Shown in pieces: positions 28,453-32,376 of a stretch of 44,220 nt of DNA; within the stretch, counting starts at the first letter, position 1; each line of letters opens with the position of its first letter. The translations under genes were made by a program, and so were the position numbers. Source of the stretch: a virus; the IMG/VR virus record IMGVR_UViG_3300005470_000006, positions 1 to 44,220 of that record; one strand, given 5' to 3'. The notes beneath the pieces were generated by a model. It made no database searches, was not told the origin of the DNA, and worked only from the letters and a program-made list of their open reading frames with translations.

Positions 28453-28746
28453 TTAAAATTTAATCTTTCTAATATACCCTTTTGTTACATAAAAAAACCA
28501 ATTCCTTACATAAGGATTAGCATACTTATCATGTATCCTACTTAATTGCTTAATAGCTATTTTATAACTTTTATCTGTATGATTGCTTTTTATTTCAAAA
28601 TATAAGTTGTATTTACCTGTTGTAGCATATAAGTCTATTTCTCCTGTTAATTTATGTTTTGGACCGTACTCTAAATTTTTAAATATGTCATACTTATTGC
28701 TTAACCTTTGTTCAAGATTATCGATTATCTGTTGGTGTTTGTTCAT
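28453..28746 (-). CDS. PD-(D/E)XK nuclease-like protein
   Basis: 97 aa. The motif GEIDLYATTGKYNLYFEIKSN has the spacing of PD-(D/E)XK nucleases (Asp, then Glu-x-Lys at the end of a strand), preceded by an N-terminal helix (QQIIDNLEQRLSN) with Glu and followed by a helix with AIKQLSRIHDK. Small enzymes of this type act as Holliday-junction resolvases or repair nucleases and can clear branched DNA before packaging, which suits the position just upstream of the terminase. ATG overlaps the preceding stop. Confidence 0.7.
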   Translation of the reverse strand: MNKHQQIIDNLEQRLSNKYDIFKNLEYGPKHKLTGEIDLYATTGKYNLYFEIKSNHTDKSYKIAIKQLSRIHDKYANPYVRNWFFYVTKGYIRKIKF

Positions 28747-28895: not shown

Positions 28896-29070
28896 TTTTT
28901 CGTTTCCTTTCACTTGCTTCTGCTCTAAATTGTTTGCCTAACTCAATTTTATTTGAATACCATGTTACAAAATCAAGCACACTATTACTATTAGTTTCAG
29001 ATTGAAATTGTGAAACTGTCGCTTTCAAATTACTTACGCTTCTCATATCCGATACATCCCCAAAATTCAT
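28888..29070 (-). CDS. Small hypothetical protein
   Basis: 60 aa: MNFGDVSDMRSVSNLKATVSQF, SVLDFVTWYSNKIELGKQFRAEASERKRKNE. Helical and charged, no known domain. RBS AGGAGGAAAAGAAAG is strong. Lies between the AAA+ ATPase and the small zinc protein, probably one operon. Confidence 0.5.
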   Translation of the reverse strand: MNFGDVSDMRSVSNLKATVSQFQSETNSNSVLDFVTWYSNKIELGKQFRAEASERKRKNE

Positions 29071-29088
29071 CTTTCTTTTCCTCCTTAA

Positions 29089-31011
29089 TCAAAACCCTAT
29101 GGCTCTGTATTTAGTACCTTGTTTTTGTTCTTGTAATCTATCAATCTGATACAATAACTGTTTCTGGTCAACATAACCCATACCAACAATCATATCTTGT
29201 GGAGCTTCAATGATTTCTCTAACCCTTTGTTTAAGAGATTTTTCTATCACATTATCAATATCAGCATAATTAAACCCTGCACTAGCTTTAGCTAACGCTG
29301 GATATTTGATATGTTTGATAAGTAATCCTTTACAATACTTCTCTTTAAATTCACTGTTTTTCCCAGCAATCTTAGTCCTGTATCCTTGAATTAAACCTTG
29401 TTCATCAGGTAAATCAAACTTTATTATCTTATCAATCCTACCTGACCTAACACTAGCTTCATCAAGAGCTTCAGGGAAATTAGTAGCAAATATTATGTAA
29501 ATCGGTTCAGTGTTATCATGTATCCGTTGTTGGTTTTTCATTAAACAATTAAGTAATTTATCATCCTCTTTATGAGAACTCATCCGATTACCTCTTTTAG
29601 AAAGTAACGAATCAGCTTCATCAAACAATGATAAAACACAATACCCTTGCTTAGCATATTTACCTAACATATCAAAATATTTCTGTAAATTAACAGCACC
29701 CATGTTGATGTAAGCTGTACCATACTGTCCTATATCATAAGGGGCTTCCATTACATTCATACCTGATTTAATAAGTTCGTTCCGTATTGCTGACATTGAG
29801 AAAGTTTTACCTGAATTATGTGATAACACACCATTACTTAAAAAGAAATTATTTGTATCAGGTACAACTAAATCAACCATTTCTTCAATTCTGCCAGTTC
29901 TCCTGATAGATTTGATGGTTTTGTTATGTGTAATTTTGTGTGACATCCTTGACATAACACTATTAAATTGTCTACAGAATTGTTCATAGTATTTTTGTCT
30001 TTGTGATGTACTATCAAATCCATGTTTAATGTTTTCTTTACACCACAAACTGAACATATCCAAGGTTGATTCTGTTTCGCTATCTTCAGATAATTTTTCC
30101 TGTTTACTTTTTGACCCACTTTCTTCCCATGAATGTATTGATGATTTAGTCTCCCCTTGAACTTTTCCGATAATTTCTTCCTGTGTTCTGGTTTTCTTAT
30201 TTCTATTGCTGCTTGTTCTTTGAAACTTCTTAGTTTTATCCCATATATCTTTAACCTGTTTCCTATTACATGATGAGTCACTCCTTTCATCTTTGATATT
30301 TTTGACAGAGACATCTTTTGATTGATGTATAATTCTATCGCTTCTTCTTTTGAGATTACTTCTCCCAGATACATATGATTCTTTTCTCCCTTCTGATTCG
30401 TTGTTACCATCCAACTTGTTTGTTTCTGTCTTAAAATGTGACATTTCCATGAGCAAGTCTTTTTTGTCTTCTCCTGACTTGGAGATACGTTCATCTGTTT
30501 TCCACATATTATACAATTTCTTAATATCATTTTGATTATATAAAATAGAACTAATATTTAAATCTGTTGTTAGGTGTTCTTGGAAGTCTTCTAAAAACCA
30601 TTTATGTTCTTCACTACATTCAATTATTGTATCATCAGATAATGTTATCTCTATAACTTCTTTTTTAGTGAATAATTTTTGACATGGTTTAATTATAAAT
30701 TGCTTTTTATTAATATCAAACGACACTACTTCTTCAACATCTTCTATATTCACAAAACCTATAGGTGTTAGTATTTTTGTTCCTTTAACTAAACAACCTG
30801 GTTCTCCTAACATAAGATAACTTTTATCAGGTCTAGCTAACATCATACCATACAACTCTGCGTGTTTAATATTAAAAACTGCATCTTCTAAATCAGTCTT
30901 TAGCTGTGTACTACCACAAATATCTTCCAGTAAAGGATAATCAGTGTTAGGTGGTTCAGGGACATATTTATCCTGTTCTTTCTCTACAACTACTGGTACT
31001 TTATGATTCAT
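29089..31011 (-). CDS. AAA+ ATPase (CDC48/proteasome-ATPase-like) containing an intein
   Basis: 640 aa precursor; without the intein (residues 73-399) it is 313 aa. The N-extein reads YPLLEDICGSTQLKTDLEDAV and ends YLMLGEPG; the C-extein begins SGKTFSMSAIRNEL, so splicing recreates the P-loop GEPGSGKT. Walker B is VLSLFDEAD, sensor 1 IIFATN, and the arginine finger region SVRSGRIDKII. Such ATPases remodel protein or DNA complexes; here the target may be the portal, capsid or replication machinery. The ATG at 31011 has no RBS; GGTGA stands 6 bases before an in-frame ATA 30 bases upstream, so a near-cognate start is possible. Confidence 0.85.
   Translation of the reverse strand: MNHKVPVVVEKEQDKYVPEPPNTDYPLLEDICGSTQLKTDLEDAVFNIKHAELYGMMLARPDKSYLMLGEPGCLVKGTKILTPIGFVNIEDVEEVVSFDINKKQFIIKPCQKLFTKKEVIEITLSDDTIIECSEEHKWFLEDFQEHLTTDLNISSILYNQNDIKKLYNMWKTDERISKSGEDKKDLLMEMSHFKTETNKLDGNNESEGRKESYVSGRSNLKRRSDRIIHQSKDVSVKNIKDERSDSSCNRKQVKDIWDKTKKFQRTSSNRNKKTRTQEEIIGKVQGETKSSIHSWEESGSKSKQEKLSEDSETESTLDMFSLWCKENIKHGFDSTSQRQKYYEQFCRQFNSVMSRMSHKITHNKTIKSIRRTGRIEEMVDLVVPDTNNFFLSNGVLSHNSGKTFSMSAIRNELIKSGMNVMEAPYDIGQYGTAYINMGAVNLQKYFDMLGKYAKQGYCVLSLFDEADSLLSKRGNRMSSHKEDDKLLNCLMKNQQRIHDNTEPIYIIFATNFPEALDEASVRSGRIDKIIKFDLPDEQGLIQGYRTKIAGKNSEFKEKYCKGLLIKHIKYPALAKASAGFNYADIDNVIEKSLKQRVREIIEAPQDMIVGMGYVDQKQLLYQIDRLQEQKQGTKYRAIGF
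29815..30795 (-). mobile_element. Intein inserted in the AAA+ P-loop
   Basis: 327 codons. Block A: CLVKGTKILTPIGFVNIED with Cys1; block B: DDTIIECSEEHKWFL, the His of the usual TxxH replaced in an S-E-E-H context; blocks F and G: DLVVPDTNNFFLSNGVLSHN with terminal His-Asn followed by Ser+1. All residues for self-splicing are present. The linker (residues about 89-306) is Ser/Lys/Glu/Arg/Thr-rich, without LAGLIDADG or in-frame HNH motifs; its DNA encodes an HNH enzyme in another frame. Confidence 0.88.
29868..30530 (-). CDS. HNH homing endonuclease nested out of frame in the intein
   Basis: 220 aa in the +1 frame relative to the intein. N-terminus: zinc knuckle RNCIICGKQMNVSPSQEKT...CSWKC; then a helix-turn-helix (LYINQKMSLSKISKMKGVTH); a NUMOD3-like RKPEHRKKLSEKFKGRLN; and the HNH core CSVCG...MDLIVHHKDKN..NNSVDNLIVLCQGCHTKLH. 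It has its own ATG and its TAG stop falls inside the codons for block F (Asp-Leu-Val). This is the usual plan of free-standing or intron-borne HNH enzymes. No RBS is visible, but TTTTATATAATC lies just upstream. It would spread the intein to empty alleles. Confidence 0.85.
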   Translation of the reverse strand: MILRNCIICGKQMNVSPSQEKTKKTCSWKCHILRQKQTSWMVTTNQKGEKNHMYLGEVISKEEAIELYINQKMSLSKISKMKGVTHHVIGNRLKIYGIKLRSFKEQAAIEIRKPEHRKKLSEKFKGRLNHQYIHGKKVGQKVNRKNYLKIAKQNQPWICSVCGVKKTLNMDLIVHHKDKNTMNNSVDNLIVLCQGCHTKLHITKPSNLSGELAELKKWLI

Positions 31012-31042
31012 TCCGTTATTTGGTTCTTTTGTTTCTGCTATT

Positions 31043-31384
31043 TTACATCACCTTTTCCTTTAATAATTCTGGATTTTCATATATGTTACCTACTATTTTA
31101 ATTTCATTATTATGATGATGGAATCCTAAATTAAATAAATCATTATTATATTCAATACTGTATTCTCCACCAGAATAGATTATTTGTCCGATACCTTTAC
31201 TAAATTCAACAATATCACCTTCATAAATCTCTTTCCCTGTTTTATCTTTCAAACCTGTGTATAATTCTTTATCTGAATTTTGAACCTTATATCTTATTGA
31301 ATAATCATTGGCATATTCACTTAAAGTAAAATAATAATATCTTTCTTCTGTAAGATACCATGCTCTAAACTTAATATCTCTCAC
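31043..31384 (-). CDS. YopX-like protein
   Basis: 113 aa. The start RDIKFRAWYL, the centre YTGLKDKTGKEIYEGDIVEF and the end IVGNIYENPELL are the three signatures of the YopX family (PF09643), common in phages and of unknown biochemical function. It starts with GTG seven bases after GGTGA and overlaps the previous stop (TGA/GTGA). Its own stop is followed by the AAA+ gene. Confidence 0.85.
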   Translation of the reverse strand: MRDIKFRAWYLTEERYYYFTLSEYANDYSIRYKVQNSDKELYTGLKDKTGKEIYEGDIVEFSKGIGQIIYSGGEYSIEYNNDLFNLGFHHHNNEIKIVGNIYENPELLKEKVM

Positions 31385-31584: not shown

Positions 31585-32376
31585 TCACCTCAACCACTTC
31601 TCATAAGCTTTCATTTTGACTGCATAACCAACCAATCCACCAAGACAACTTGAATTAATACCTATCACTTTACCTTGTTTATTAACAGTGAAAGTACCAC
31701 TATCACCACCTAATAACGCTTTCCCAAACCCAAACCTATTAGGATTTGAAGGTATATTTTTAACAGTTAAGCCATCAGTATCACTGACATAATCTTTACG
31801 AACATTAACGCCCATTAAAGCTGGATTGCCTACAATGTAAACCTCTTCACCAAACTTAGGTTCATCAAAACATATATCATCAATATTAAACCTATGTTTA
31901 ATCTCAACTTCTTTAGGTATCTGTAACACTGCAACATCATCATCATTATCTTGGTATAATATTTTAAGCTCCATACCATACAACATAGTCTTTTCATCTT
32001 TCATCTTTTCAACCACTTGCATAGTACCATAAGGAGTGTTCATATATCTTCTACTACAATCAACAATATGAGCACAAGTAACATACTTATCATCAACAAC
32101 TATCCCCATACCTCTCTTCTCATGAGTTCTCATCATATCAACATATTTAGCCGTTGAATAACTCATGTGTAAATACTTAGGATATTCATTGTATATCATC
32201 TGTTCAATGTTAGCTTGAACCTGGTCAGCATCAACCTCACCAGATTGTTTAATAGATTCATACACCATCTTACCTGATATAGTGCATAAACCTAATGCAA
32301 TCAAAAAATTTCTACGATTCATTTTTAGTTTACCTCCATCTTGAAAAAACTCCTGTTCAGTCATAGCTTTAGTCAT
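31585..32376 (-). CDS. Exported trypsin-like serine protease with Tat-type signal
   Basis: 264 aa if started at the ATG overlapping the preceding stop (ATGA), or 246 aa from Met19, which has GGAGGT eight bases upstream. Residues 19-35 (MNRRNFLIALGLCTISG) form a twin-arginine signal: RR, F, then a hydrophobic stretch. The catalytic triad is visible: His103 in TCAHIVD, Asp147 in DDDVAVL, Ser226 in GGDSGTF. This is the HtrA/trypsin fold without a PDZ domain. A virus-coded folded, exported protease could process virion or host surface proteins. The second start is my preference, but both may be used. Confidence 0.8.
   Translation of the reverse strand: MTKAMTEQEFFQDGGKLKMNRRNFLIALGLCTISGKMVYESIKQSGEVDADQVQANIEQMIYNEYPKYLHMSYSTAKYVDMMRTHEKRGMGIVVDDKYVTCAHIVDCSRRYMNTPYGTMQVVEKMKDEKTMLYGMELKILYQDNDDDVAVLQIPKEVEIKHRFNIDDICFDEPKFGEEVYIVGNPALMGVNVRKDYVSDTDGLTVKNIPSNPNRFGFGKALLGGDSGTFTVNKQGKVIGINSSCLGGLVGYAVKMKAYEKWLR

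Follow-up and report, generated by a model that had tools for sequence, protein, structure and literature searches.

The window, by which we mean the whole 44.2-kb virus record that was analysed, carries tailed-phage genes, among them those for terminase, portal/head morphogenesis, tail fibre, primase and family-B polymerase. It also contains an AAA ATPase gene that is interrupted by an intein, and within the intein DNA lies an open reading frame for an HNH endonuclease in a different frame (Table 1). Two small genes upstream of the ATPase gene is a gene for a trypsin-like serine protease (31585–32376, minus strand; PF13365, E 6e-9). A small ORF at 28453–28746 (minus strand) gives a weak, below-cutoff match to the NERD nuclease-related domain (E 0.0027).

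Table 1. Features of the interrupted ATPase gene in the window, and loci of P-loop inteins with an antisense HNH.
Feature	Position or locus	Strand	Basis
AAA ATPase precursor, 640 aa, intein-interrupted	29089..31011	-	single open ORF; PF00004 E 2e-13 on C-extein
N-extein, 72 aa, C-terminal GEPG (first half of Walker A)	30796..31011	-	translation
Intein, 327 aa, Cys1 to Asn327, within P-loop	29815..30795	-	PF14890 above cutoff; TIGR01443; intein fold matches
Intein block B, Ser-Glu-Glu-His	30604..30615	-	translation; intein His64 invariant in P-loop intein alignment
Intein block G, SNGVLSHN, followed by Ser+1	29815..29838	-	TIGR01443; Gly, His, Asn and Ser columns invariant
C-extein from SGKT (second half of Walker A), stop included	29089..29814	-	PF00004
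HNH endonuclease ORF, 220 aa, +1 relative to intein frame, ATG to TAG	29868..30530	-	PF01844; phrog_1271; intact HNH and zinc residues
HNH TAG stop, bases from Leu-Val codons of intein block F	29868..29870	-	side-by-side translation
Antisense-HNH P-loop inteins (26)	L175, L177, L181-L183, L187, L188, L190, L195, L199, L203, L204, L206, L207, L213, L215, L217, L218, L220, L221, L232, L235, L237-L239, L241		

The P-loop intein and its nested reading frame

The intein splits the Walker A motif of the ATPase, so that the coding sequence reads GEPG, then CLVKGT...SNGVLSHN, then SGKT; in a side-by-side translation, taking out the 327 residues restores GEPGSGKT. The initial annotation had described a 327-codon intein with intact splicing blocks, and this assignment was confirmed. 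The intein scores above the cutoff of the Pfam family PF14890 (Intein_splicing; 36.9 versus 35.8 bits), matches the NCBIfam C-terminal model TIGR01443 with an E-value of 0.0012 and gives a weak match to TIGR01445. Blocks A, B, F and G can all be read, with Cys1, S-E-E-H in block B, VDLVV in block F and NGVLSHN in block G followed by Ser+1. In the predicted structure of the intein (mean pLDDT 57), the HINT segments have pLDDT values of ∼75–92, and much of the linker is below 50. The top 22 fold matches of this model in the PDB are all inteins, with modest E-values (best 3.5e-3).

Peptide-pattern searches returned no close relatives of either the ATPase or the HNH protein, and no intein-less allele of the ATPase was found. 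The closest P-loop intein to that of the window, at 32% identity, is a 149-aa mini-intein (L196:3585-4034, minus strand). Its short linker has an in-frame CxxC...CxxxC stretch resembling a zinc knuckle, perhaps a remnant of an HNH domain.

The endonuclease of the window intein is not fused in the intein frame. It is encoded in the +1 frame between blocks B and F, starting at a separate ATG and ending at a separate TAG; the complete out-of-frame HNH gene of the initial annotation is thus present. The TAG does lie within block F, in the Asp-Leu-Val region, as had been stated; the ATG is downstream of block B, at a distance of ∼24 codons past the block B histidine rather than just after it. The 220-aa product scores 22.4 bits against PF01844 (HNH; cutoff 21.4 bits) and matches phrog_1271 with an E-value of 2e-16. 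It has a zinc knuckle at its N-terminus and a complete HHxD...N...CxxCH...H motif (H175, H176, D178, N188, H197 and H201), and the zinc ligands C159, C162, C193 and C196 are all intact. The other modules previously assigned to this protein, NUMOD3-like and helix-turn-helix, are less distinct: neither has a curated match, and the helix-turn-helix-like matches are weak (E 0.0076–0.07). An AlphaFold model of the nested protein by itself was uninformative.

Two open frames in the same DNA

The double opening in the window is not due to chance. When the HNH protein and the codon usage of the phage are held fixed, the intein frame would be expected to contain 25.8 stops, and the probability that it is open is 2.6e-18. 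When the linker protein is fixed instead, the codon-usage model gives a probability of 4.6e-8 for an open HNH frame. Codon shuffles that keep the gene's own codon usage were run in both directions. Synonymous shuffling of the HNH gene left the intein frame open in 0 of 20,000 trials (mean 10.4 stops, minimum 2), and shuffling of the linker left the HNH frame open in 0 of 20,000 (mean 5.9 stops, minimum 1). Among the other window genes tested, the longest same-strand run in an alternative frame is 88 codons.

The wobble positions of the HNH gene carry a corresponding signature. T is found at none of the 77 codons where it would create a stop in the intein frame, compared to 43 of the 142 codons elsewhere. 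The open-frame statistics and this avoidance of T therefore indicate that selection on silent sites in the HNH gene keeps the intein frame free of stops. The dual-coded element proposed in the initial annotation is supported, at the codon level, by these tests of the window and by comparative data from the similar arrangements described below.

Overprinted nucleases in other phage inteins

A weak HNH match was noticed in the cultured Synechococcus phage S-EIVl, located out of frame within the terminase gene. The linker of the S-EIVl terminase intein encodes the HNH in the identical +1 frame to that of the window. To describe the distribution of this layout, viral contigs in IMG/VR were scanned with a frame-neutral DNA pattern consisting of the HNH CHxxxH, a spacer of 50–80 nt and intein block F. 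The scan gave 66 loci, of which ∼30 are real intein-plus-HNH pairs; the others are chance matches spread across frames. The HNH is at +1 in all of the real pairs except one (L013, in frame), and none is at +2. A scan with longer spacers yielded four recognised pairs (L144, L152, L163 and L168), all in-frame HNHs at one type of site; therefore in-frame inteins exist and are recovered by the method. The same pattern applied to a collection of bacterial and archaeal genomes returned chance matches and one in-frame HNH intein (L117), which serves as a control for the pattern.

The arrangement of the window thus recurs in ∼30 further viral terminase inteins with an HNH at +1, including those of two cultured phages, S-EIVl and Gordonia phage Clown. 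The genome of Clown is GC-rich, which makes an open second frame less improbable (59 of 3000 shuffles open). Grouping of the +1 HNHs at 40% identity gives four sets: that of the window, the S-EIVl-like terminase group, a group of L014, L029, L036 and L041, and L068. The terminase inteins share a common insertion site directly before Walker B (C/[LI]IDDP and variants). One of them, L041 (3026-6835), has a 1270-residue terminase frame that appears to hold two inteins, an upstream one with in-frame LAGLIDADG-like motifs and a downstream one with the +1 HNH.

The initial annotation had called for a comparison of both frames across related viruses, which was possible with 17 distinct S-EIVl-like inteins. 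Each of these is exactly 337 aa long, and they therefore align without gaps. Within the overlap, divergence at intein codon positions 1, 2 and 3 is 0.417, 0.250 and 0.215, respectively, position 1 being the wobble position of the +1 HNH. The encoded proteins have an identity of 0.69 when read in the HNH frame, against 0.49 for the intein frame and 0.48 for the third frame, which is unused. Upstream of the HNH, the highest conservation is that of the intein frame (0.73). The intein frame has no stops in the overlap of any of the 17 sequences, while the third frame has 17–25. Codon shuffles left the intein frame open in 0 of 2000 trials for each of the 16 testable sequences. The frame identities and the absence of intein-frame stops therefore identify the HNH as the selected protein in the overlap, with the linker constrained mainly to stay open. 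From these alignments, the protein encoded by the linker in the intein frame appears to be largely unconstrained filler that drifts while the HNH is conserved. Since close relatives of the window element were not found, selection on its own HNH frame is judged from one sequence and from distant analogues (24–27% identity).

Relatives with in-frame or lost nucleases, also suggested for study at the outset, were found. In-frame HNHs occur at L013, L173 and L200. At L075 a stop lies within the HNH, and at L053 and L077 126 intein codons have been lost in frame; the intein is kept in all three. L033, a 643-residue ORF, is a terminase mini-intein with an apparently internally deleted HNH still at +1, and could be an intermediate of decay. 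The splicing blocks remain in all four despite the broken or deleted HNH, in keeping with an intein that can do without its nuclease. A broken HNH frame beside a conserved linker sequence, the pattern that had been named as evidence against dual coding, was not seen, because the linker of this family is not conserved as a protein, its identity being that of a meaningless frame.

Nucleases on the opposite strand define another arrangement. Among 72 viral loci with the intein junction HN/SGKT, at least 26 have an antisense-strand HNH ORF in the linker (Table 1); L173 and L200 have their in-frame HNHs at the same kind of junction. All 26 antisense HNHs share one antisense phase, and the intein frame is open throughout. 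They belong to PF13392 (HNH_3), unlike the HNH of the window; the two that were tested both score above cutoff. In codon shuffles of the 21 distinct sequences, the intein frame was open in 0 or 1 of 1000 trials for 16 and in 4 to 25 of 1000 for five. For eight related cases, divergence at the HNH codon positions is.356/.295/.638, and the HNH frame has an identity of 0.57, versus 0.24 for the intein frame. Two cultured phages, Pectobacterium phage Ymer and Pseudoalteromonas phage PHS3, also show this arrangement. In Ymer (L246; OP748252.2, 2451-4715), a 754-aa "hypothetical protein" is a terminase-like ORF whose intein contains the antisense HNH. In PHS3 (L247; KX912252.1, ∼18.5–19.3 kb), the antisense HNH is annotated as a gene of its own, while the intein went unrecognised and the annotated terminase large subunit begins at an internal start within it.

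The different HNH families at +1 and in antisense imply at least two entries into phage inteins outside the host frame. The +1 frame is a shifted sense frame without forced-stop dipeptides, and a nuclease gene there can therefore fit the intein by silent changes that leave its protein unchanged. We considered whether the genetic code dictates the frame. The +1 cases fit this idea. The phase shared by all 26 antisense HNHs, however, is one with forced-stop dipeptides (FI, FM, FT, FN and FK, absent from the 21 distinct ones examined), and the choice of frame may therefore simply be inherited. We consider it likely that HNH genes have repeatedly colonised phage inteins outside the intein protein, at +1 in terminase Walker B-site inteins and the P-loop intein of the window and in antisense in P-loop inteins, in at least two unrelated events involving different HNH families. 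Such overprinted inteins would form a common type of mobile intein that has gone unrecognised. In these elements, silent constraint on the nuclease gene would keep the host frame open, and expression of the nuclease would not have to depend on the precursor.

Expression, alternative explanations and known systems

No Shine-Dalgarno sequence is present at the nested ATG; one is recognisable in 17 of the 42 listed ORFs of the phage and lacking in 25. The nested start is located in A/T-rich, weakly structured RNA. A conserved HNH start was not found among the terminase relatives, and a GTG with a Shine-Dalgarno sequence in S-EIVl was rejected as the HNH start since it is not conserved. A TATAAT just upstream of the nested ATG was likewise discounted as a promoter: 11 promoter-like sites were counted, compared to 7.2 in shuffled sequences (sd 2.6).

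The lack of a strong signal at the nested start would be consistent with an HNH gene that is a dead passenger, left over from an old insertion and now unexpressed or inactive, such that only the intein matters. The decayed HNHs of L075, L053, L077 and L033 could be read in the same way. However, the HNH protein is under purifying selection over a large divergence in the 17 terminase inteins. The window gene, for its part, retains its HNH and zinc residues in a frame that is non-randomly open, and a dead passenger is therefore unlikely. The missing Shine-Dalgarno sequence might also indicate that ribosomes shift from the intein frame into that of the HNH, producing an N-intein-HNH fusion, rather than initiating internally. 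Such a mechanism would be possible in S-EIVl, where the +1 frame continues without a stop upstream into the N-extein, but frameshifting has little room in the window because the +1 frame is open for only 9 codons upstream of the ATG. A canonical ATG is positioned directly before the zinc knuckle, and we regard frameshifting as quite improbable.

HNH genes are common in group I introns, and a self-splicing intron, rather than an intein, could in principle carry the gene as an intron-encoded nuclease. An Rfam scan of 29000–31100 at E-values up to 1 detected no group I intron and gave only a weak match to IS009, far below the gathering score; moreover, the reading frame is uninterrupted and includes intein blocks A, B, F and G, so that an intron is extremely unlikely. 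It is just as hard to believe that a normal in-frame endonuclease domain of the intein was put out of frame by two compensating indels arising from sequencing or assembly errors. The window sequence is a metagenomic contig, and in-frame HNH inteins are known in phages (L013, L144, L163, L168, L173 and L200). However, compensating indels could shift the HNH frame but could not open the other one, and the open-frame statistics therefore effectively rule out paired sequencing errors, in agreement with the initial annotation. The HNH also has its own start and stop, and the identical +1 layout is found in cultured phages.

The element in the window is thus very probably a dual-coded mobile intein, with a splicing domain in the intein frame and a separate HNH homing endonuclease at +1 that is made from its own internal ATG. 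In the cycle that we envisage, the precursor would be translated from 31011, and the intein would excise itself from the P-loop and restore the ATPase. The HNH would be made separately, probably at a low level, from the internal ATG. It would then cleave the P-loop site of ATPase alleles that lack the intein, and the entire element would be copied in during repair (homing). The element may have originated by invasion of a mini-intein, the HNH presumably being derived from an intron or a free-standing gene. The ATPase needs its P-loop, and T would have been purged from the stop-creating wobble positions of the HNH because only copies with an open intein frame survive.

If homing nucleases do exist as separate overprinted genes inside inteins, splicing and homing would be uncoupled, and the nuclease could be made from another start or even from the opposite strand. 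The acquisition or loss of a nuclease by an intein would then require no protein engineering, and some apparently nuclease-free inteins may be mobile. Such elements would offer a natural system for the study of overlapping genes in which the linker frame is constrained mainly to lack stops, and would explain the odd linkers and mis-annotated terminase genes in the cultured phages S-EIVl, Clown, Ymer and PHS3. The open-access literature, to which the search was confined, yielded no description of an intein whose endonuclease is encoded out of frame or on the antisense strand.

In the textbook view, an intein is a two-domain protein that combines splicing with homing. The window element resembles classical mobile inteins (L013, L173 and L200; PI-SceI type) in having a splicing domain with an endonuclease between blocks B and F; in the classical inteins, however, the endonuclease belongs to the intein protein itself, whereas the window encodes it separately, in a different reading frame. 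Dassa et al. reportedly described, in 2009, split inteins whose two halves flank a free-standing endonuclease gene. They are similar in that the endonuclease is encoded apart from the splicing protein at the intein locus, but their host gene is broken in two, while the precursor in the window is one uninterrupted ORF. The zinc-knuckle and HNH layout of the nested protein is shared by gp20 of Geobacillus phage PK5.1 and gp147 of Bacillus phage SP-15 (26–28% identity over ∼91% of the query), which are ordinary free-standing genes between other genes and not located inside an intein. Intron-encoded HNH nucleases of phages, such as I-PfoP3I (PMC3428280), are also nested in a splicing element of a host gene; there the splicing is by RNA, and the window has no intron signature.

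Out-of-frame "hidden" HNH insertions have been described in mycobacteriophage methylases, as the ShiLan domain and the Pacc40 insertion (PMC11855218, 2025). As in the window, the HNH gene lies out of frame in an insertion through which the host reading frame continues, homing is presumed and no clear ribosome-binding site is seen. The authors conclude that the ShiLan-type insertions are neither inteins nor introns, and the insert is presumed to be retained in the protein (PMC11855218). The ShiLan HNH is in the third frame with a GTG start, while that of the window is at +1 with an ATG. Splicing blocks are absent from the ShiLan-type insertions, whereas the window has intact blocks, a PF14890 match above cutoff and a P-loop that requires restoration. 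The window element is best classed as a probable mobile intein and not as a new category.
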